Origin: Corallium rubrum
Lineage: Eukaryota; Cnidaria; Anthozoa; Scleralcyonacea; Coralliidae
Direction: 5' to 3'
Assembly (NCBI GenBank): GCA_964035015.1
Contig: OZ036003.1
Location: 7,077,754 to 7,141,753 of the forward strand
Length of the DNA stretch: 64,000 nt
Shown here: positions 710 to 56,859 of the stretch, piece by piece
Position numbering within the stretch: the stretch's first letter is position 1
Layout: each line of letters opens with the position of its first letter
Translations under genes and position numbers: made by a program
Notes under the pieces: generated by a model
Told to the model about the DNA's origin: nothing
Database searches by the model: none
What the model saw: only the letters and a program-made list of their open reading frames with translations

Positions 710-3700
710 CTGAAGTTGAGATAAAATTAACAAGTTATATCATGTATTTGTAATAATTATGTTAATCGATATTTTGATGCGACGCTTGTAATGTACCGTA
801 CCGTAACCTACCGTAACGTAACGTAACTTAACGTGCTGTAACGTACCGTAACGTACCGTAACGTACCGTAGCGTACCGTAACGTACCGTAACTTACCGTA
901 ACTTACCGTAATACCGTAACTTACCGTAACTTTCCGTAACTTAAACTTACCGTAACTTACCGTAACGTACCGTAATGTACTGTAACGTACCGTAACTTAC
1001 CGTAACGTACCGTAACTTACAGTAACTTACCGTAACTTACCGTACCGTAACTTACCATAACGTACCGTAACTTACCGTAACGTACCGTAACTTACCGTAA
1101 CTTACCGTAACGTACCGTACCGTGAAATGTGGAGTGGTGCAGTGTAGTGTAGTGGGGAATTGCGTAGTGTGTTGCGGAAAAGTGTGAAGTTGTGTAGTGG
1201 TGTGGTAGTGAAGCGTGGAGAGGTGCAGTGTAGTGTAGAGTGGTGGAGCGATGAAATGGCACAATGAAGTGGAGAATGGTGAAATGTAGTGTGATGAAAC
1301 GTGGAGTGATACAGTGTAGTGTAATGTAGTATGGAGTGGTGTAGTGCATGTGGAGTAGTAAAATGTAGAGTGCTGTAGTGGGGTGGTATTGGGGAGTGGT
1401 GATGTGGACTGGTATAATGTGATGTAATGTTATGTTATGTAAGGGTATTCCACCACTATATTGCATAGGTAGACCAACATTTTGTATTAAAGAAATACCA
1501 AATGGTTTTCCGTGTTTGGATACTCTGATCCAAACACGGGGGAAATTGCGAGACTGGAGAAAAGCGTAACAAGTTTCGAAAGTCGAGCAATTTCCCAAGT
1601 GTTTGGATAAGAGTCTCCAAACACGGAAAAAACAATTTGGTATTTCTTTTATAAAATAATCACAAGTGAATATGATATACTGTCCGACATTTTCAAAAAA
1701 TCGTTTTGGCGGGAATTTTCCGTGTTTGGATATACTCTTATCCAAACACGGCAATTGACCAATCAGGGCTCGCGTAGTATACATGTTAATTATAATATAA
1801 TATACTTTCATGACGCACTAGTACAAACCTTTACTTTCGAGTCCTTCGGGCCAGTTTTATTCCCAGGTAGTTTAGAAGGAAGTGACGGCGTTAGTATTCG
1901 ATTTATACCACCTGTAATTTGCGCTGCGTCATCGACAAAGTTGGACCCTTTTCTTTTCGTTTTCTCGTAAACTTCATTGTCTATGTAAGGCTTGATCAGG
2001 TACGCTCCTTGTATTTTCTTTATGCCTGGATAGAGCAAGGGCGCCATATTGACAAAGGCAACTCCGTGAAAAGTGATGTGTTGTTCGTCCTCATTTGGTT
2101 GTTGTTTTCCTTTGCCCTTCGCAAGGGATGGCATTGGTTGTCTTATGATCTCCACTGGCCAGATACGTGTGTGAGCTATTTTTTCTTGCAAACTAAAATG
2201 ACAATACATAGTTCATCTCGCGCATAAAAGAATTCTAGGAAGTGACGTGATGTAAGGTGAGGTGAGATGAAGTGAAGTAAGGTGAGGTAATTTGAAGGGA
2301 ACGTGAGATCAAGTGAAGTGAAGTGAAGTGAAGTGAAATGAAGTGAAGTGAAGTGGAGTGGAGTGGAGTGGAGTGGAGTGAAGTGACGTGAAGTGACGTG
2401 ACGTGACGTGACGTGACGTGAAGTGACGTGAAGTGACGTGAAGTGACCTGACGTGACCTGACGTGACGTGACGTGACGTGACGTGACGTGAAGTGAAGTG
2501 AAGTGAAGTGAAGTGAAGTGAAGTGAAGTGAAGTGAAGTGAAGTGAAGTGAAGTGAAGTGAAGTGAAGTGAAGTGAAGTGAAGTGAAGTGAAGTGAAGTG
2601 AAGTGAAGTGACGTAAGGTGAAGTGAGGTGAGATGAAGTGAAGTAAGGTGAGGTAATTTGAAGGGAACGTGAGATCAAGTGAAGTGAAGTGAAGTGAAGT
2701 GAAGTGAAGTGAAGTGAAGTGAAGTGAAGTGAAGTGAAGTGAAGGGAAGGGAAGGGAAGGGAAGGGAAGGGAAGGGAAGTGACGTGACGTGACGTGACGT
2801 GAAGTGAAGTGACGTGACGTGACGTAAAGTGAAGTGAAGTGACGTGACGTGACGTGACGTGACGTGACGTGACGTGACGTGACGTGAAGTGACGTGAAGT
2901 GAAGTGAAGTGACGTAAGGTCATCTGAGGTGAGGTGAAGTTAGGCGAGGTAATTTGAGGCAAGGTGAGATGAAGTGGAGTGGAGTGAAGTATGAAGTAAA
3001 GTAAAGTGTGAAGTGAACTGTGAAGTGATGCGAAGTTAATGCAGGTTTTATTATGCGTTTTTCAAAAAGTATCATTACATGACATGACGTTACGTTACGT
3101 TACGTTACTATTACATTACACTGCAGTTCACTATTGTAGTTTAGTGTACCTTTGAGATGCTTCTGAAGAGAGGAAACATCTCCTCTCAGAGTTCCAGGTA
3201 ACGCGCGATTTTTCAATCATTGCATGTTGTTTGAAGTTTGCATCCTAAAACAGCAATATTTACTGTCTTCATTTTCTTCAATTATGTGCTCTGAGTTTGT
3301 TCCGTTCCATTCCGTTCCGTTCTGTTCCGTTCCGTTCCGTTCCGTTCCGCTCCGCTCTGCTCTGCTCTGTTCTGTCCGCCTGTTCTGTTCTGTTCTGTTC
3401 TGTTCTGTTCTGTTCTGTTCTGTTCTGTTCTGTTCTGTTCTGTTCTGTTCTGTTCTGTTCTGTTCTGTTCTGTTCTGGTCTGTTCTGGTCTGTTCTGGTC
3501 TGTTCTGTCCTGTCCTGTTCTGCTCTGTCCTGCTCTGTCCTGTTGTCCTGCTCTGTCCTGCTCTGTCCTGCTCTGTCCTGCTCTGTCCTGCTCTGTCCTG
3601 CTCTGTCCTGCTCTGCCCTGCTCTGCCCTGCCCTGCTCTGTCCTGCTCTGTCCTGCTCTGTCCTGCTCTGTCCTGCTCTGTCCTGCTCTGTCCTGCTCTG

Positions 3701-4577
3701 CCCTGCTCTGCCCTGCTCTGCTCTGCCCTGCTCTGCCCTGCTCTGCTCTGCTCTGCCCTGCCCTGCTCTGCCCTGCTCTGCCCTGCTCTGCCCTGCTCTG
3801 CCCTGCTCTGCCCTGCTCTGCCCTGCTCTGCCCTGCTCTGCCCTGCTCTGCCCTGCTCTGCCCTGCTCTGCCCTGCTCTGCCCTGCTCTGCCCTGCTCTG
3901 CCCTGCTCTGCCCTGCTCTGCCCTGCTCTGCCCTGCTCTGCCCTGCTCTGCCCTGCTCTGTTCTGTTCTGTTCTGTTCTGTTCTGTTCTGTTCTGTTCTG
4001 TTCTGTTCTATTCTGTTCTGTTCTGTTCTGTTCTGTTCTGTTTTGTTTTGTTTTGTTTTGTTTTGTTTTGTTTTGTTTTGTTTTGTTTTGTTTTGTTTTG
4101 TTCTGTTCTGGTCTGGTCCGTTCTGGTCTGTTTGTCTATGTGCCTATGTGTCTGTCTGTCTGTTCGTTTGTTCGCTTTCTTGTTTGGTTATACTGTAGTT
4201 GACCAGGTTTATTACATAAGTTGTTAAACACAGGCATACAAGTGGTGTCAGTAGCAGTATGTGTCACAGCGATTAGTTGCTGTATATAGACCCGTTCGCA
4301 CCTTTCTCGTTTGAGTTATCTACTTGCATGTACTTTATTTATCTAATTTCTTCATTTTCTGTTGTTATTAGTACGTAGTTCCCAATAAAGTTATTTAAAA
4401 AAAAAGTATTTTTATCAGGAGTCAAAAGATTAATACTCCTATTATAAAAACATAAAATATGTAAATCATTATCTACGGTTGCGGAAACTTACACATGGAT
4501 CTTGTAAATCACCGTGTTCTTCCTCACTAAACCCCTCGTTTACGTTACTGTAAAATAAAATAAAATACATTACAAAT

Positions 4578-19654: not shown

Positions 19655-20149
19655 ATTTCTACCATAAAATCGTCTCTAAACTCTTAACTTTCTCTCGCAG
19701 GTTGCGAGTCTACTATGCCGCCATCTTGATATTTACACGTCGTTGCTAAGAGACTACGTACTCGGACCAGACCTCTCGCGTCTTCGAATTTTTTATCCAT
19801 TGGTTTTCGACAAAAAGTGCGAGTAATTTTTCTCGAGGAACGTGCTTTTCAAAAGGTCGATAGTTTTGTGTGTTTCAGAAGATTGGAAGCCTAAAGTGTC
19901 TTGAAATCTACTGGAAAAGTAAGTAAAAAGTATTTTTATATGTTTTAAAACAATATTGAGTGTGTTATTTAAATATGGGAAGAAAAGGCGATTATATTTT
20001 GGCTGAAATAAAGGCGAATAAATAAATTAGTTAGTCAAATTTTCGTACATACTTTCGCAACTCGAAAAGGCCGTTTGGAACCAACGTGTTCGCTTTCTGT
20101 AAGAAAAATCATATTCGCTCTTCATTTGTGTTAAACTGCCTGAATTAAG
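19655..20149. promoter_or_regulatory. Bidirectional promoter CFAP70 / DRG2
   Basis: The two ATGs are 496 bases apart, head to head. GTTGCTAAGAGAC at 19742-19754 reads GTCTCTTAGCAAC on the minus strand and fits an RFX X-box with one spacer base. GCCGCCATCTTG at 19717-19728 is the complement of the YY1 core AAGATGGCGGC. There is no clear TATA box. On the DRG2 side a good donor (GTAAGT at 19919) and an AG just before the ATG suggest a 5'UTR intron. Motifs are seen; factor binding is inferred. Confidence 0.7.
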
Positions 20150-21244
20150 ATGGGTATTCTCGAGAAAATAAGCGAAATAGAGAAAGAAATTGCTCGTACT
20201 CAGAAAAACAAAGCGACAGAGTATCATTTGGGCACTTTGAAAGCGAAATTGGCCAAGTACAGGGCACAGCTACTTGAACCGACTTCAAAGTCATCCAAAA
20301 CTGGGGAAGGCTTTGATGTAATGAAGTCAGGTGATGCCAGAGTTGCTCTCATTGGATTCCCATCAGTTGGCAAGTCAACGCTTTTGAATAAAGTAACTTC
20401 AACGGAAAGCCAGTCAGCATCCTATGAATTCACAACATTGACTTGTATTCCGGGGGTGATTGAACACCATGGAGCCAACATTCAGTTGTTGGATTTGCCT
20501 GGTATTATTGAAGGAGCATCCCAGGGAAAAGGTCGTGGTCGGCAAGTGATTGCAGTTGCTCGGACGGCAGACATGATCATCATGATGCTCGACGCAACCA
20601 AAGGGGAGATCCAGAAAGTCTTGCTCGAAAAAGAACTCGAGACTTGTGGTATCCGGCTGAACACAGAGAGACCAAACATTTACTTCAAGCAGAAAAAAGG
20701 TGGTGGGATTGCTTTTAACGCAACATGCACATTGACTCGTGTCAATGAGAAAGTCATTCAGACCATTCTTCACGAATACAAGATTTTCAACGCAGAGGTC
20801 CTATTCCGCGAGGACTGTGGTGTCGATGAGTTCATTGATGTCCTTGCTGCAAATCGGGTCTACCTGCCATGTCTGTATGTGTATAACAAGGTTGATTGTG
20901 TCTCCTTGGAAGAGGTTGATAGAATTGCTCGCTTGGATGACTCTGTGGTGATCAGTTGTGGCTTAGATCTGAATCTCGATTACTTGTTGGACAAGGTTTG
21001 GGAGTACCTGGCTTTGTTACGGATTTACACCAAGAAGAAAGGGTCCCCTCCAGATTTCGAGGACTGTTTGATTCTTCGTCAGGGTGCAAGTGTTGAACAT
21101 GTCTGTCACACGATTCACAGAACCATGGTGGATGCTTTCAAGTATGCATTGGTGTGGGGAACGAGCACCAAATACAGTCCTCAAAGAGTTGGGATAAACC
21201 ATGTTATGCATGACGAGGATGTCATTCAAATCATGAAGAAGTGA
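20150..21244 (+). CDS. DRG2: DRG2, developmentally regulated GTP-binding protein 2
   Basis: 364 residues, the same length as human DRG2, and beginning MGILEKISEIEKEIARTQKN as the human protein does. DRG2 is a cytoplasmic OBG/HflX-like GTPase of the TRAFAC class, stabilised by RWDD1 (DFRP2) and linked to translation. Seen: G1 GFPSVGKST (69-77), G3 DLPGIIEGA (115-123), G4 NKVD (246-249), the lysine-rich N-terminal helix, and a C-terminal TGS domain ending YALVWGTSTKYSPQRVG and EDVIQIMKK. DRG2-specific features (TTLTCIPGVIEH, KKGGGIAFN, LDLNLDYLL) exclude DRG1. The CDS has no intron; AATAAA follows at 21288 with no poly-A tract, so I do not call it a retrocopy. It shares a promoter with CFAP70. 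Confidence 0.98.
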   Translation: MGILEKISEIEKEIARTQKNKATEYHLGTLKAKLAKYRAQLLEPTSKSSKTGEGFDVMKSGDARVALIGFPSVGKSTLLNKVTSTESQSASYEFTTLTCIPGVIEHHGANIQLLDLPGIIEGASQGKGRGRQVIAVARTADMIIMMLDATKGEIQKVLLEKELETCGIRLNTERPNIYFKQKKGGGIAFNATCTLTRVNEKVIQTILHEYKIFNAEVLFREDCGVDEFIDVLAANRVYLPCLYVYNKVDCVSLEEVDRIARLDDSVVISCGLDLNLDYLLDKVWEYLALLRIYTKKKGSPPDFEDCLILRQGASVEHVCHTIHRTMVDAFKYALVWGTSTKYSPQRVGINHVMHDEDVIQIMKK

Positions 21245-29060: not shown

Positions 29061-31068
<2,008 letters not shown>

Positions 31069-31194
31069 GCTAAAGAATAGAAAGAGAAACCTGGTTATCT
31101 AATATTATATAGTATCCACAACGCATGCTCTGGATGACTAGGCTCGAGAATGAAAACCGTGAATGATGTCAGCTTGAAGCCGACAGATGGATAT

Positions 31195-42014: not shown

Positions 42015-45000
42015 CAGTAAGTTATGACTATGACTATGACTAATCGGACTATGACTATTACTATGACTATTAAGACTATGACTATGAAGACTATGACTAT
42101 GAAGACTATGACTATGAAGATTATGACTATGAAGACTATGACTATGAAGACTAGGACTATGAAGACTAGGACTATGAAGACTATAGGACTATGAAGACTA
42201 GGACTATGAAGACTAGGACTATGAAGACTAGGACTATGAAGACCAGGACTATGAAGACTAGGACTATGAAGACTAGGACTATGAAGACTAGGACTATGAA
42301 GACTATAGGACTATGAAGACTAGGACTATGAAGACTAGGACTATGAAGACTATGATTATGAAGACTATGACTATGAAGACTATGACTATGAAGTCTATGA
42401 CTATGAAGACTATGACTATGAAGACTATGACTATGAAGACTACGTATGATTATGAAGACTATGACTATGAAGACTATGACTATGAAGACTAGGACTATGA
42501 AGACTATGACTATGAAGACTATGACTATGAAGACTATGACTATGAAGACTATGACTATGAAGATTATGACTATGAAGACTATGACTATGAAGACTAGGAC
42601 TATGAAGACTAGGACTATGAAGACTATAGGACTATGAAGACTAGGACTATGAAGACTAGGACTATGAAGACTAGGACTATGAAGACCAGGACTATGAAGA
42701 CTAGGACTATGAAGACTAGGACTATGAAGACTAGGACTATGAAGACTATAGGACTATGAAGACTAGGACTATGAAGACTAGGACTATGAAGACTATGATT
42801 ATGAAGACTATGACTATGAAGACTATGACTATGAAGTCTATGACTATGAAGACTATGACTATGAAGACTATGACTATGAAGACTACGTATGATTATGAAG
42901 ACTATGACTATGAAGACTATGACTATGAAGTCTATGACTATGAAGACTATGACTATGAAGTCTATGACTATGAAGACTATGACTATGAAGACTAGGACTA
43001 TGAAGACTATGACTATGAAGACTATGACTATGAAGACTATGACTATGAAGACTATGACTATGAAGACTATGACTATGAAGACTATGACTATGAAGACTAG
43101 GACTATGAAGACTAGGACTATGAAGACTAGGACTATGAAGACTATGACTATGAAGACTATGACTATGAAGACTATGACTATGAAGACTATGACTATGAAG
43201 ACTATGACTATGACTATGAAGACTATGACTATGAAGACTATGAAGACTATGAAGACTATGACTATGAAGACTATGAAGACTATGACTATGATGACTATGA
43301 CTATGATGACTATGAAGACTATGACTATGAAGACTATGACTATGAAGACTATGACTATGAAGACTATGACTATGAAGACTATGACTATGATGACTATGAC
43401 TATGAAGACTATGAAGACTATGAAGACTATGAAGACTATGAAGACTATGACTATGAAGACTATGACTATGAAGACTATGACTATGAAGACTATGACTATG
43501 AAGACTATGACTATGAAGACTATGACTATGAAGACTATGACTATGAAGACTATGATTATGAAGACTGTGACTATGAAGACTATGACTATGAAGACTATGA
43601 AGACTATGACTATGAAGACTATGACTATGAAGACTATGACTATGAAGACTATGACTATGAAGACTATGACTATGAAGACTGTGGCTATGAAGACTATGAC
43701 TATGACTATGACTATGAAGACTATGACTATGAAGACTATGACTATGAAGACTATGACTATGAAGACTATGGCTATAAAGACTATGACTATGAAGACTATG
43801 ACTATGACTATGAAGACTATGACTACGAAGACTATGACTATGAAGACTATGACTATGAAGACTATGACTATGAAGACTATGACTATGAAGACTATGACTA
43901 TGAAGACTACGTATGATTATGAAGACTATGACTATGAAGACTATGACTATGAAGACTATGACTATGAAGACTATGACTATGAAGACTATGACTATGAAGA
44001 CTATGACTATGAAGACTATGACTATGAAGACTATGACTATGAAGACTAGGACTATGAAGACTAGGACTATGAAGACTAGGACTATGAAGACTATGACTAT
44101 GAAGACTATGACTATGAAGACTATGACTATGAAGACTATGACTATGAAGACTATGACTATGACTATGAAGACTATGACTATGAAGACTATGAAGACTATG
44201 ACTATGACTATGACTATGAAGACTATGAAGACTATGACTATGATGACTATGACTATGATGACTATGAAGACTATGACTATGAAGACTATGACTATGAAGA
44301 CTATGACTATGAAGACTATGACTATGAAGACTATGACTATGATGACTATGACTATGAAGACTATGAAGACTATGAAGACTATGAAGACTATGACTATGAA
44401 GACTATGACTATGAAGACTATGACTATGAAGACTATGACTATGAAGACTATGACTATGAAGACTATGACTATGAAGACTATGACTATGAAGACTATGATT
44501 ATGAAGACTGTGACTATGAAGACTATGACTATGAAGACTATGAAGACTATGACTATGAAGACTATGACTATGAAGACTATGACTATGAAGACTGTGGCTA
44601 TGAAGACTATGACTATGACTATGACTATGAAGACTATGACTATGAAGACTATGACTATGAAGACTATGACTATGAAGACTATGGCTATAAAGACTATGAC
44701 TATGAAGACTATGACTATGACTATGAAGACTATGACTACGAAGACTATGACTATGAAGACTATGACTATGAAGACTATGACTATGAAGACTATGAAGACT
44801 ATGACTATGAAGACTATGACTATGAAGACTATGAAGACTATGACTATGAAGACTATGACTATGAAGACTATGACTATGAAGACTATGACTATGAAGACTA
44901 TGACTATGAAGACTATGACTATGAAGACTGACTATGAAGACTATGACTATGAAGACTATGACTATGAAGACTATGACTATGAAGACTATGACTATGAAGA

Positions 45001-45935
45001 CTATGACTATGAAGACTATGACTATGAAGACTATGACTATGAAGACTATGACTATGAAGACTATGATTATGAAGACTGTGACTATGAAGACTATGACTAT
45101 GAAGACTATGAAGACTATGACTATGAAGACTATGACTATGAAGACTATGACTATGAAGACTATGACTATGAAGACTGTGGCTATGAAGACTATGACTATG
45201 AAGACTATGACTATGACTATGACTATGAAGACTATGACTATGAAGACTATGACAATGAAGACTATGACTATGAAGACTATGACTATGAAGACTATGACTA
45301 TGAAGACTATGGCTATGAAGACTATGACTATGAAGACTATGACTATGACTATGAAGACTATGACTATGAAGACTATGACTATGAAGACTATGACTATGAA
45401 GACTATGACTATGAAGACTATGAAGACTATGACTATGAAGACTATGACTATGAAGACTATGACTATGAAGACTATGAAGACTATGAAGACTATGACTATG
45501 AAGACTATGACTATGAAGACTATGACTATGAAGACTATGACTATGAAGACTATGAAGACTATGAAGACTATGAAGACTATGACTATGAAGACTATGACTA
45601 TGAAGACTATGAAGACTATGACCATGAAGACTATGAAGACTATGAAGACTATGACTATGAAGACTATGACTATGAAGACCATGACTATGAAGACTATGAC
45701 TACGAAGACTATGATTATGAAGACTATGACTATGAAGACTATGACTATGACTATGACTATGACTATGACTATGACTATGACTATGACTATGACTATGACT
45801 ATGACTATGACTATGACTATGACTATGACTATGAAGACTATGACTATGAAGACTATGACTATGAAGCCTATGACTATGAAGACTATGACTATGAAGACTA
45901 CGACTATGAAGACTGTGACTATATGACTATGACTT
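42015..45935. repeat. 3.9-kb satellite of GACTAT / GAAGAC hexamers
   Basis: Built from GACTATGAA and GACTAT words in 6, 9, 15 and 18-base periods. Variants (TACGTATGATTATG, GACTGTGGCTATG, GGCTATAAAGAC) recur at long intervals, so parts of the array were duplicated as blocks of about 443 and about 910-950 bases. Open in several frames on both strands because the words lack stops. Confidence 0.98.
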
Positions 45936-48712
45936 AGTGTAAACAGACGATTTTTTTGTTACAAAACGCTCAACATAAACGGGCCTTAGTAAGGATTTTG
46001 GTTGCTAATTTCCTTCTTCGTTTTACTTCGATTGGCTCTTTGGGTCTTTTTATAAACCTGCTTTGTTCGTTTGCCAAGCTCTTTGTCTCTGCAAAGATCC
46101 TAATCTCAGCCAGATACAATAAGCATTGTTATATAGCCATGGTTTTACACCTGGTACACTCACACGAAATGGCGTGGTTCAGCTTCGAAAACATTTGAAT
46201 TTCCCACCTGCATCGCCGCTGCACGCAACTGTACCGTAAATATGCACACGCATATGCATGTTAAATCTTAACACTAATGTATTTAAAACACGTCGGTTCA
46301 CATATGTGGCTCTGAATAATTCGTTATTCGTTTTGACTGCACAGAGAGATAGACGCTCTATCTTGAAGTCAGTAATTGTCGCTTCAATGTGCATGTCGCG
46401 GTCGCCGTCATCAGAAAACCGTTGGAGCATGCTTAACACAGTCCTATACGTGAACCAGAAACAGTGCCTTTATTGTGTGGCTCTGTGTATACGCCAAACA
46501 ATTTTACTCATCAAATGGAGAACCCTCAGACATCCTATGCATACATGAGCAATGGTTAACAAGCAATCCTGATTGAACCGGCCGGCAAAAAAAACCCAGC
46601 CGTTTTATTGTTAAATTTACTCTGAATAATGTTAGACTATATTTGACTCATCAAAGGGAGAACCTTCAGATATCCTATGCAGCAATGGGTTAACAAGTGA
46701 TTAACCCAATCATGCTATCATCGATCCCTATAGCAATGGCCGTCTTTGCCTTGAAAGGCCTTGTTTCAGTCTTTCATCTGACTGTATTTTGGCCTCAACA
46801 GCCTTCTCAGTTTAGGTTATATAGTTTTAAAATACGAATTCAGCAAGCAGTTCAAGGACTGGTGTATTACGGACGTGATACTCTGTGTGGGTGGAAATGC
46901 CGTTAAACACTTAACGATTAAGGTTGTATATATTAGCCCAGTTCATATATAAGCGACTTGCCACGTCGAATGATTCATCATATATACACCTTGATATATC
47001 GGACCTGGTGACAACACCTCACGTTAGTGTTTGTTGCCAGAAATGCTTCTCTTTCAGAGCGAAATTAGGATAGCCGAAAAGCCTGGTTTGAAACGCCAAC
47101 AACGTAATTCACGAGTCTTAGTATAGATTCAGGAGTGCTAAATTGCCACGAAACAGGCTCAAAAACATTACATTGACTGTATCGCAATGTCTATCCATCG
47201 AAGGAGCTGGCGAAGCTATAAAAGCTACTTCCTTGATTATGAATGAAGCTCAGTCAAATTTAAATAACTGAAATATCTAAAGTACTAGTGATATACTACA
47301 GTCCTTTTATAACATAACAAACATATGGCATAAGCTGAGAAGTTTGGCTAACAGAATTGGCTGACTAGAAAACGACCTTGTGTAGCTATCTGTACGAGCT
47401 AGTGTATTAAAAAAAATGCTGCTACGAAGCCAACTTACATTGTAGTGGTCTTCACTTTTTACTAAACTCTGATATATCGTGTTTGCACGGCTTGGTACCG
47501 CCATGTACTCACTGACACAACCAACCAATATCCAGTTTGAACTTTCTGACGTGTAGTATCACATGTGTGCGTGCTTTCTGAGACACTCTTTAGATTAGAC
47601 TTGCTGTTGCCTGCAACTTCAACATGTCCAAGCTAAGCACGCATGTTTAATGGCGTCCTTCCGTTTGGCTTCATGACAAGAAAAAAAGTCATGTTTTATG
47701 AAAAACATGCCGGGATACGTTGGACAATTCTTGGCCTGCGCATGCATGTGGCAATCATGCGGTGTCGAAAATAGCGGTATTGTACTTCAAAACAAAGACT
47801 AGATCAGCCAATTACTAACGGTTTTTTCCTTCTGATCACGAATTATTTGCCTTTTCACTAAAAACGAGCTTTATTTTAACGAAAAGTGCTGAAAGGACGT
47901 GAAACGGGTGTTACATCTTGTTGTGTTCTTTCTGAGTTCAAATGGGTCTCTTTTTATTGGTTTAGAATTTTAAGCCTTCTTGCTGCGCCCGTCAGGTCAA
48001 TTTAGGCCAGACAATCGTATTCAACTTTATTCTAAGTATGTCTTTATACTTTCAACCGAAAAAGGACCTAAATTGTTGTACTCTACGATCGCGGGTAATT
48101 TGTTTCGGTAATAACAAAGCATTACCGAACCCCATTAATGTTCAAACAAATGATGTTTAAATATCATTAAATTAATTCGGTGCACGAAACCCTGGTCCAA
48201 GGGCTCTTAACCTTCAAACGAGAACAAAATCACGTATTATGTTTCATTTTTGCCAGACAAAAATATTTGTATGATGATATCTTATATGAAAACCGAAAAT
48301 TCCTATCATTAATTCGTAACTGATTTTCAAATGTCGTCCGACCTGCAAGTTCGAATTGCCCTATCTATCTGATACATCACCGTTTTAATTCAATATTTAA
48401 TGAGAATCGTGGGACATCATTTAAGCAGTAACAGATTTCTTTAGTTTGGCACAGCACAGCATAGCGTATAACATACTTATTGTGGACAGCAAACTCAGGC
48501 GGAGAATATTGGGTGCCACTCCGCATAAACGAAGTGTATTGATTCGTGTTGCGCAGTGTTTGCATTCAATTGTTACTTGAAAAACAAAAGCTGAAATTCC
48601 AAATCAAATATCAAATTCTACTAAACGTGAGTAATTGAGTGCCTGTAATACGCACATGAGGGTTTCGAAATGGTGGATGGGTTTATTTGGGCATTCGAGG
48701 CGTATTAGGGGC

Positions 48713-53865: not shown

Positions 53866-54401
53866 TCCTTGCGGTTTTGCCCATTTTGAAAAACTCCTAA
53901 TTTTTAAAAATATTTTGCTGGGACGACATGAATCGTTTAATGAAATGAAGTTTAGTGGCTCAGCCGTCTCAACTCGATATCATTTTTGCCACAATTTCTT
54001 GCAAAGGGCCGATAGGCCAGACTGACTCGTCTCATTGGGATCGGTACTGTGGATTTAATACTAGCATATAAATTAAGGCCCAGTTTCGGCTCATCTTGTA
54101 TCGAGTGAAATCCAACTATAGCTATAAACGATGTGACTAAAACGCATCAGATGATGGTTTGGTTTATGTGGTTGATTAGCTTATATGAAGTACATCAAGC
54201 CACTTAAATCAAAATACCGTAATTATTCGAATAAACGCCTCCCTCGAATAAACGCCGCCCTCGAATAAACGCCGCAGGGACAAGCAAAAATATTATTAAA
54301 CGCCGCCCTCGAATAAACGCCGCACCTGAAGCGCCAAAAATTTAATAAACGCCGCGGCGTTTATTCGGTACTTATCTTTAAAAAATAAGACAACATTAAA
54401 T

Positions 54402-54890
54402 CTAAAGCAGTCTTGGATATTTATTCTTCTCGATTACAATGTTATTTAGTTCGAAGTGGCTATACTTCATAGCTTTGCTACTTAGTTCTCTCTCTAAAAC
54501 TTCTGCTATGCGCAGTTCCGTGGTGACAGCCGAGAATTTTGCCGGTACAACTAGTCCGATTTCTCTCTTTCTTTTTCCAGTGGCTTTCGCGAATAGTTTG
54601 TTCTCAGTGTTTGCGTCTAGGAAGTTCTTTAATAAGCGAGACAGCTCAATTGGGACGTGGCCAGCAAGCGTCTTCTTCGAATTCGGCTGCTTCGTGCCAG
54701 TGGGAGGTTTATAAACACCAATTGCGTTTTCATCGTGTTCCTTTGCCTCTGCGCGAGTATCTTTCTCACATTCAAGTATTTCATGAGTTTTGGGAGTCCA
54801 CACAGACTTATAAACATGGCGACCTCGGATAATCGTGTCAAAGTCTACCTTGAAATACATTTTGAACTCTACTGGCATTGCCCTTGCCAT
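54402..54890 (-). CDS. HIRAN-like accessory protein of the pogo element
   Basis: 162 codons, Met at 54890, stop at 54402; AATAAA overlaps the end. The motif IRGRHVYKSVWTPKTHEILE with CEK, then HDENAIGVYKP and LAGHVPIELSRLLKNFL has the layout of HIRAN domains (RGxxxY...GE.L...P.NxxDxxAIxV...vGHvPxxxS...), small OB-like folds that bind DNA ends in HLTF-type proteins. A C-terminal part of 60 residues is unknown. The gene sits inside the transposon ends and points away from the transposase, so the two may share a promoter at 54891-55094. A role in target choice or DNA end handling is inference. Confidence 0.7.
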   Translation of the reverse strand: MARAMPVEFKMYFKVDFDTIIRGRHVYKSVWTPKTHEILECEKDTRAEAKEHDENAIGVYKPPTGTKQPNSKKTLAGHVPIELSRLLKNFLDANTENKLFAKATGKRKREIGLVVPAKFSAVTTELRIAEVLERELSSKAMKYSHFELNNIVIEKNKYPRLL

Positions 54891-55094
54891 TGTTGCGACT
54901 TGCGAGTTAACGGCTTTGTTTGAAATTTGAGAAGGTTTGCATCAAGTTTGTGACATTAAGTTATTACTCGCACTTACTCAAATTACAAACATCGCTCGTG
55001 GTCCAATCAGCAAGTGCGGTTTGTATTCATGCTAATTGCAACTAGATCTATATTTTAGCACATGCAATGGCACAAAACCTACAACAAATGAGGA

Positions 55095-56534
55095 ATGGCA
55101 GATTCAAATAGGGACCAAATTTCGCACAAAGGACAAAAAAGACATAAATACAGCCTTGCAGTAAAAAAACAAGCAATCGCATATGCTGAAATACACGGAA
55201 ATCGACCTGCTTCTCGCCAATTTCAAGTCGATGAAAGAAGAATACGAGAATGGAGAGCAAAGAAGAGTGATATCGAAGGTGTTCTTGCGGTAAGAGGTAA
55301 CAAAGTCAAACAAAGAAGTAGATTGTGTGGAGCTGGCCGAAAACCGCTAAGCACGAAGTTAGAGGAAGTTTTAATGGAGTGGATTGAAAGCAGACGATCT
55401 CGCGGTCTTCGAGTTTCCAGTAAACTTATAATGAAGAAAGCACAAGTAACATTCAACGATATAAACCAAAATGACGTGACTGACGACGACTTTAAAGCTT
55501 CAAGAGGCTGGTTGGCAAAATTTATGAAGAGAAATGGTTTATCTTTGAGAAGAAAAACCTCTATTGCTCAACAGGATCCAGAACGAATGATAGCTAAACT
55601 CGTGTCATATGTAATTCAAGTAAGACGCCTACAGAAAAAGCACGAATACAGCCCCTCTGATATCATTGCAATGGATGAAACTCCAGTTTGGTGCGATATG
55701 GTATCCGAAACCACTATTGACGCAACCGGGACAAAGACTATTACACTGAAAACGACGGGTCATGAAAAGGCTAGAGTGTCAGTTTGTTTAGCTGCCAAGG
55801 CCGATGGGACAAAACTTAAGCCTATGGTAGTCTTTAAAGGAGCAAAACGAGAATCCGCAGCGCTAAACGAAGAGTTCAAACGTAGAGCGGTCGTAGCCAC
55901 TTCGGTAAATGGATGGATGGACACTGAATTAACTCGTACCTGGACCAACTCTGTTCTAGGAGCGTTTTCTTTCAACCGAAGGCTGTTAGCTTGGGACTCC
56001 TACGAGTGTCACCTTGTGGACAGTATAACCGACTCTCTGAAATCCAAGAAAATCGATCGCGTGATTGTCCCGGGAGGTTGTACCAAATATATACAGGCGC
56101 CCGACGTAAGTTGGAACAAACCATTCAAATCATTGTGCACAGAAAGGTATGATGAATGGCTGGCGACAGTAGGCATTCACGAAGAAACAGCAGCTGGGAA
56201 TTTGAAAGCGCCACCAAGAAAAACCATTTTGCAGTGGATTCTGGATTCCTGGGATGAATTGCCTACAGATGTCATCAAGAAATCGTTCAAAAGTTGTGCA
56301 TTGAACCTTCCAGTTGACGGCTCAGAAGATGATGCGATTCACTGTTTCAAGGAGGGACAGCCGTGCAACACTGGACAAGCCGTCCTGAAATCACAACTGG
56401 ATATTCTCGACGAGCCAGAAACGAATCCTTTCGACACTGAAGAATACACGTCTTCCGATGTTGAAGAGGCATGCCCTACTATTCAGCTGTTAGACTCGGA
56501 CCACGAAGGAGACAGTGACATTGAAATAGAATGA
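55095..56534 (+). CDS. Pogo/Tigger-type transposase, full length
   Basis: 479 residues with no stop or frameshift. Order: N-terminal psq/Brinker-like helix-turn-helix (about 15-57, YSLAVKKQAIAYAEIHGNRP), CENP-B-type DNA-binding domain (about 80-155, ending GWLAKFMKRNGLSLRRKT), then the DDE_1 catalytic core. The acidic triad is D194 (IAMDETPVW), D301 (LAWDSYECH) and D337 (QAPDVSWNKPFK), a DD35D spacing. The last 60 residues are acidic, as in other Tigger proteins. It cuts and pastes at TA. Start: first Met after the divergent promoter region. With its ends and both flanking TAs intact, the copy may still be active or recently so. Confidence 0.97.
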   Translation: MADSNRDQISHKGQKRHKYSLAVKKQAIAYAEIHGNRPASRQFQVDERRIREWRAKKSDIEGVLAVRGNKVKQRSRLCGAGRKPLSTKLEEVLMEWIESRRSRGLRVSSKLIMKKAQVTFNDINQNDVTDDDFKASRGWLAKFMKRNGLSLRRKTSIAQQDPERMIAKLVSYVIQVRRLQKKHEYSPSDIIAMDETPVWCDMVSETTIDATGTKTITLKTTGHEKARVSVCLAAKADGTKLKPMVVFKGAKRESAALNEEFKRRAVVATSVNGWMDTELTRTWTNSVLGAFSFNRRLLAWDSYECHLVDSITDSLKSKKIDRVIVPGGCTKYIQAPDVSWNKPFKSLCTERYDEWLATVGIHEETAAGNLKAPPRKTILQWILDSWDELPTDVIKKSFKSCALNLPVDGSEDDAIHCFKEGQPCNTGQAVLKSQLDILDEPETNPFDTEEYTSSDVEEACPTIQLLDSDHEGDSDIEIE

Positions 56535-56859
56535 AACTTAGTCATTATATAAGACAGTGAACAGTTCAATTTTCATATATATTTATATATATTTAAAAGA
56601 CATATGAATTTTATTCTTAGTTTTTTAATAAATTCACAGTTGTTGTTACAAAATTTGCAATAAACGCCGCCCTCGAATAAACGCCGCACCTGAAGCGCCA
56701 AAAATTTAATAAACGCCGCGGCGTTTATTCGAATAATTACGGTATGGTTGACTGGTCAATTTATTTAATTTGACTCGACTAAAAAACCATATCCATGATG
56801 CCCTCATGTATTTCAAGCGAGTTTGATTTAGATTTGACATTGAGCCTGGGCTGTTCCTG

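Follow-up and report, generated by a model that had tools for sequence, protein, structure and literature searches.

What would keep a second, non-transposase gene inside a pogo DNA transposon? Pogo elements have given rise to host genes, are under development as gene-transfer tools and have been described as one-enzyme systems; the view that they normally encode one protein, from which the original prediction for the locus studied here set out, broadly agrees with the family accounts, in which Passer elements have one open reading frame (ORF) of 400-500 amino acids (aa) (PMC9976928) and pogo elements one or two ORFs, encoding transposases (PMC7386202). In a 64,000-nucleotide (nt) stretch of the Corallium rubrum genome (assembly GCA_964035015.1, contig OZ036003.1, forward-strand positions 7,077,754 to 7,141,753; hereafter the window), a complete pogo element pairs a Passer-like transposase with a divergently oriented gene for a stand-alone HIRAN-like protein. 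We put the probability at about 0.8 that this is a two-gene pogo transposon whose HIRAN partner, kept by selection, most likely serves the element. The case is built on the architecture of the element, the predicted fold of the partner, its linkage to pogo transposases and purifying selection between subfamilies; selection and linkage carry the proposed accessory role, and from there we infer the mechanism outlined in the Discussion.

Results

Architecture of the element and its transposase

As predicted, a transposase and a second intact ORF lie between perfect, TA-flanked ends: the terminal inverted repeats (TIRs) measure 23 base pairs (bp), and the two proteins 479 and 162 aa (Table 1). The second ORF has no internal stops; when the 878 bp to the left of the transposase were simulated 5000 times with a first-order Markov model, an equally long or longer ORF arose in 0.12% of the runs. 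Both ends carry dense subterminal repeats composed of AATAAACGCCGC-type units and a 22-bp palindrome, the units at the outer end of the left block being spaced at 17 bp. An AATAAA lies downstream of each gene, so that both have plausible poly(A) signals.

Table 1. Features of the two-gene element, in window coordinates
Feature	Position	Strand	Basis
Complete two-gene pogo DNA transposon	54217-56742		Ends and ORFs read from the window sequence
TA target-site duplication, left	54215..54216	none	Window sequence
Left TIR, 23 bp, perfect	54217..54239	+	Repeat comparison
Left subterminal block: repeated AATAAACGCCGC-type units, then the 22-bp palindrome at its end	54230..54367	+	
AATAAA, candidate poly(A) signal of the HIRAN gene, 36 nt past its stop, within the subterminal palindrome	54360..54365	-	
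HIRAN-like gene, 162 aa + stop	54402..54890	-	ORF list, Pfam, predicted fold, copies, selection tests
204 bp from one start codon to the other; putative divergent promoter of both genes	54891..55094	none	Similar spacing among copies
Pogo (Passer-like) transposase, 479 aa + stop, DD35D	55095..56534	+	ORF list, Pfam
AATAAA, candidate poly(A) signal 3' of the transposase	56627..56632	+	
Right subterminal block, 83 bp; 94% direct copy of left-end 54285-54367	56649..56731	+	
Right TIR, 23 bp, perfect	56720..56742	-	Repeat comparison
TA target-site duplication, right	56743..56744	none	Window sequence

The transposase scores well above the Pfam cut-offs for DDE_1 (55.1 vs. 22 bits) and HTH_Tnp_Tc5 (56.2 vs. 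22.2 bits), a combination that, with TIRs and a TA target-site duplication, defines the pogo superfamily; a BrkDBD match stays under its cut-off (17.2 vs. 23.4 bits). Its acidic triad is D194/D301/D337, with 35 residues separating the last two, and this DD35D spacing, together with HTH_Tnp_Tc5 alone or with BrkDBD, is what the Passer family displays. Placed by features and family descriptions rather than by a tree, the transposase thus fits Passer; since a second gene is present and kept in the element, in departure from the single ORF of that family, we call it only Passer-like. A PCNA-binding motif was not found in this transposase, and NCBIfam returned a weak IS630 match for it and nothing for the HIRAN protein.

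The partner has a predicted HIRAN fold

The partner had been said to resemble HIRAN, and fold prediction bears this out: its predicted model adopts the HIRAN fold, with the HIRAN domain of HLTF as the top structural match, and profile searches agree. HIRAN is also the sole Pfam match of the 162-aa protein at an E value of 1 or less (E 4.4e-4, 20.5 bits), and relatives from elsewhere in the genome exceed the family cut-off of 24.7 bits (L086, 39.4 bits; L070, 31.7 bits). Aligned with HLTF, the window protein shares an Asp-x-Asn-Ala-Ile stretch (D53-I57) and a Gly-His pair (G77-H78). A single-sequence AlphaFold model, with a predicted local distance difference test (pLDDT) score of 38, was discarded. 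Searching the PDB with the single HIRAN protein by phmmer gave no match, PHROGs returned two weak matches to unknown families, a tblastn search of phages yielded one weak match (E 5), and a viral collection searched with HIRAN, the transposase, the palindrome and a degenerate HIRAN motif yielded no confirmed relatives.

Copies of the element

All relatives described here come from the one 474-megabase genome that holds the window. A DNA search with the element gave 47 matches; of the 30 copies fetched, 27 are exact at both ends and have a TA on either side. None of the 30 has a break in the HIRAN frame, which spans 162 aa in 28 copies and 160 aa in L025 and is also open in L028; the transposase frame reaches at least 479 aa in 14. 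Differences among the young copies are few, and all but one site are private to a single copy (25 of the 30 compared, five of the six copies from the tandem array on C18 being left out). By these comparisons the window element is young and stems from a recent burst, after which the copies have decayed neutrally. The array itself (C18:2591792-2636610) contains six copies at a spacing of about 7.86 kilobases (kb), with mostly the same flanks and with transposases cut to identical length; by its layout it is a tandem duplication containing the element.

The HIRAN gene is linked head-to-head to pogo transposases

Protein searches of the genome yielded 111 HIRAN and 93 transposase matches; best candidates only were scored, and the counts below are lower bounds. 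Forty-nine transposase matches, including six in the C18 array, begin no later than query residue 25 and so include the N-terminus, and in 48 of them a HIRAN gene or part of one stands head-to-head within 3 kb, a count into which the 67 longer HIRAN matches of the 111 were entered. The lone exception (C30:5306806) has an inverted HIRAN C-terminal remnant nearby (L075). Related copies lacking the ORF, which would have spoken against the original prediction, are thus nearly absent from this set. In most pairs the start coordinates differ by 202 (by 205 in the window), in three by 780-2033, and the same layout is kept in subfamilies with 83% (L062) and 52% (L061) HIRAN identity, the latter adjoining a transposase 65% identical to that of the window.

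The arrangement extends to far more distant relatives. In a second lineage, a HIRAN locus 32% identical to ours (L070) lies head-to-head with a transposase of 24.5% identity (L077), and a partner is found at 201-303 in all 12 transposase loci with an N-terminus (two of them likely one duplicated stretch on C1). The L077 transposase (L077:187-1893; C32:9218986-9220692) comprises 569 aa with weak C2H2 finger matches; 36 residues separate its last two catalytic positions and the second acid reads as N442, which makes inactivity or domestication of this copy possible. In a third lineage, a transposase piece 20-26% identical to the others has 32 residues between its last two acids, and DDE_1 stands head-to-head with three of four open HIRAN loci (C86, C1:61483607 and C15, not C132; two partial loci with a stop, C1:60191802 and C1:61486854, are omitted). 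A further diverged pair (C1:24970467/24971284) shows 30% and 34% identity. The possibility raised at the outset of one captured host gene, decaying elsewhere, was not seen, because the ORF recurs in these two further lineages.

Taking all 84 DDE_1 matches together, 59 have a HIRAN match no farther than 4.5 kb away, head-to-head in 58 cases and with an inverted transposase part in the remaining one (C279); 200 trials with shifted loci gave a mean of 0.35 and a maximum of 2. All 111 HIRAN matches, 22 rows not of window type and all 55 Pfam HIRAN loci entered this count; a smaller set, with 51 of the 111 entered, gave the same 59 and 58 and left the same 25 of 84 unlinked. Three diverged transposase matches (L078, L079, L080) had no HIRAN in about 900 bp upstream, and a diverged HIRAN (L068) had no pogo transposase within 2 kb upstream (L076). 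Chance adjacency of an ORF and a host gene at the insertion site were both rejected by the copies, the HIRAN matches across the genome, the 48 of 49 head-to-head linkage and the shifted control.

Among the HIRAN ORFs away from any DDE_1 gene (examples are C6:21824-22135, C47:214421-214732 and C1:22444795-22445106), several recur on different contigs in groups of similar score and frame length (293 aa, 244 aa and 143 aa), which suggests that HIRAN is carried by other mobile elements as well.

Both genes were under purifying selection between subfamilies

Selection was estimated by the Nei-Gojobori method, skipping codons where one copy or the other had a stop or an unknown base. Between the window and three copies of a subfamily at 83-87% identity, the ratio of nonsynonymous to synonymous substitution rates (dN/dS) of the HIRAN gene is 0.29, 0.30 and 0.34, as expected if, as had been proposed, the second ORF is under selection; the corresponding ratios of nonsynonymous to synonymous proportions (pN/pS) have upper bounds of 0.55, 0.56 and 0.63. 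The transposase gives dN/dS values of 0.24 and 0.38 for two pieces of one copy. Synonymous sites are saturated in the comparison with the deeper subfamily, where pN/pS is 0.34 for HIRAN (L061) and 0.26 for the transposase; the window compared with the D type gives 0.51 and with L066 0.24. Five HIRAN pairs from the second lineage have a pN/pS of 0.24-0.28; the members of a sixth pair are nearly identical. Inside the window lineage, the two genes diverge in step. On these values, selection has retained the partner along with the transposase.

Other features of the window

Elsewhere in the window, a DMRT-type gene at 29061-31098 (minus strand) has both a DM and a DMA motif, and its DMA-bearing frame also contains a zinc ribbon above the Pfam cut-off; we take this gene as a sign of an animal genome. 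A DRG2-like GTPase occupies a single open frame at 20144-21244 (plus strand; 366 aa between stops), with an AATAAA shortly past the stop and ribosome-interacting GTPase 2 as its best PDB match. Three long simple-sequence arrays (42181-45958, 3167-4227 and 2176-3061) are open in several frames simultaneously, for example as tyrosine-glutamate-aspartate repeats, and their ORFs look like repeat by-products.

Discussion

Several observations weigh against a HIRAN partner that serves the transposon. At 20.5 bits, the window protein alone falls below the Pfam PF08797 cut-off; L061 does so too (22.2 bits), and Pfam finds nothing in L069. The HLTF residues N90 and N91 (numbering from 5bnh) align with A49 and K50. 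Pairs inside the 83-87% subfamily give pN/pS values of 1.06, 1.17 and 2.30; the intervals are wide, and dead copies would be expected to show such values. The young copies look neutral, with 15 nonsynonymous to 8 synonymous changes in HIRAN and 35 to 15, plus 5 stops, in the transposase; they carry no selection signal because nearly all of their changes are private to one copy, and the signal arises instead from the older subfamilies. Linkage, too, is incomplete. HIRAN is missing from the 4.5 kb around 25 of the 84 DDE_1 loci, a group that includes several short fragments as well as five loci whose open frames of 534-775 aa may represent other pogo genes. DDE_1 is missing at that distance from 41 of the 55 Pfam HIRAN loci, three of which adjoin transposases found otherwise (C1:70012640, C9:717749, C1:24970422). 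Neither gene therefore needs the other everywhere, and HIRAN is not confined to pogo. Finally, linked families share descent, and the linkage counts are not independent. We nevertheless favor a partner that serves the element, as it has been kept by selection with pogo transposases through very deep divergence.

How such a partner might work can be approached through HLTF, whose HIRAN domain binds single-stranded DNA at the 3' end (PMC11237066), the activity on which the original prediction drew; replacing N90 and N91 with alanine abolished DNA binding (PMC4666394). For the window lineage, where both asparagines are replaced, 3'-end binding is doubtful, and the protein may have changed its ligand. 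At the same two positions, members of the second lineage have NN (L081, L085, L086) or SS (L070), and the third lineage keeps one N. Excision by such transposases leaves free 3' ends, which makes a partner acting on cut ends the most natural reading. As its family suggests, the transposase would cut and paste the element between TA sites; in a scheme that we offer tentatively, at somewhat less than even odds for its steps jointly, the HIRAN protein would be made together with it from one divergent promoter, would act at DNA ends or fork-like intermediates made by excision and insertion, and would hold or shield the cut ends so that rejoining or insertion favors the element. With its known 3'-end pocket altered, the window-lineage protein may now have another DNA structure, or else the transposase, as its ligand. 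That a HIRAN domain can act in trans on a cleaved complex is known for the isolated HLTF domain (PMC11237066).

The same observation can be turned toward the host, since the isolated HLTF domain blocks Cas9 removal from cut DNA in a dominant-negative manner (PMC11237066): the HIRAN protein, which stands alone with no enzyme domain, as befits a competitor, could vie with HLTF/Rad5-type translocases for DNA ends and so stop them from stripping the transposase or from unwanted repair at the donor site. We regard such an inhibitor as rather unlikely, given that the HLTF DNA-binding residues are changed in the window lineage and that constant close linkage to the transposase start equally fits co-expression for a joint task. 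The dense subterminal repeats and the presumed single divergent promoter would offer binding sites to a regulator of the element, comparable to the Myb-like protein that Harbinger transposons encode beside their transposase, and PDB entry 6kcs is by its title an HLTF HIRAN domain complexed with duplex DNA; yet the HLTF HIRAN domain is reported to bind single-stranded and forked DNA and to lack affinity for duplex DNA (PMC4666394), so that recognition of duplex sites would be unusual and a regulatory role is, in our view, distinctly improbable. A host HIRAN gene captured by chance and riding along functionless might have found a donor among the 41 HIRAN loci away from DDE_1, and would match the lack of constraint in young copies after insertion, but it is disfavored to the point of being very hard to sustain by purifying selection between subfamilies and in the second lineage, and by the recurrence of an identical head-to-head layout in three lineages whose transposases are 20-26% identical.

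Two further proposals concern history. Several pogo lineages could have acquired HIRAN independently, with the shared layout reflecting convergence on a useful function rather than common descent, which is compatible with a partner that serves the element. The differing spacings of the last two catalytic positions in the three linked lineages (35, 36 and 32) and the DDE_1 loci that lack HIRAN point this way, whereas the in-step divergence of both genes in the window lineage and the uniform layout across all three do not; on balance we think independent acquisition possible but on the unlikely side. Alternatively, and speculatively enough that we would not expect it to hold, HIRAN might belong to the core machinery of pogo transposition from ancient times, several families descending from a two-gene, head-to-head ancestor and one-gene elements having lost the partner, perhaps because host HLTF/Rad5-type proteins substitute; much of this genome's HIRAN repertoire would then be of transposon origin.

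A full-text literature search, with subscription papers mostly outside its coverage, found no paper linking HIRAN with pogo and none linking it with a cnidarian; judged from literature listings, pairing HIRAN with transposase, transposon or coral gave nothing relevant, and the matches listed in a broad search with transposable element were mostly other words sharing the same start. A conserved second protein with a fold known from DNA-end and fork remodelling would point to a step, in pogo transposition or in its conflict with host repair, that to our knowledge is unassayed, and the pairing supplies a possible origin for the stand-alone HIRAN genes of animals.

Among known systems, PIF/Harbinger elements are likewise DNA transposons with a transposase and a second protein of DNA-binding type, the Myb-like partner that is thought to serve them, but they differ in transposase superfamily and in the fold of that partner. 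The Tec/TBE elements of ciliates are also Tc1/mariner-related and have extra ORFs, whereas the extra genes named for them are a recombinase, a zinc-finger protein and one unknown (PMC7325037), and the word HIRAN is absent from the text of that paper. With the HIRAN domains of HLTF and Rad5 (PF08797; PMC4666394, PMC11237066) the window protein has in common the predicted fold, the D53-I57 stretch and the G77-H78 pair; it differs in standing alone with no helicase joined, in the A49/K50 replacement and in its sub-cut-off Pfam score. Closest is the Passer family, whose accounts (PMC7386202, PMC9976928) agree with the window element in the DD35D triad, HTH_Tnp_Tc5 with a weak BrkDBD match, a transposase of 479 aa, TIRs under 30 bp, the TA duplication and a length of 2.5 kb, but Passer is described with a single transposase ORF, to which the element reported here adds a gene that does not encode a transposase.
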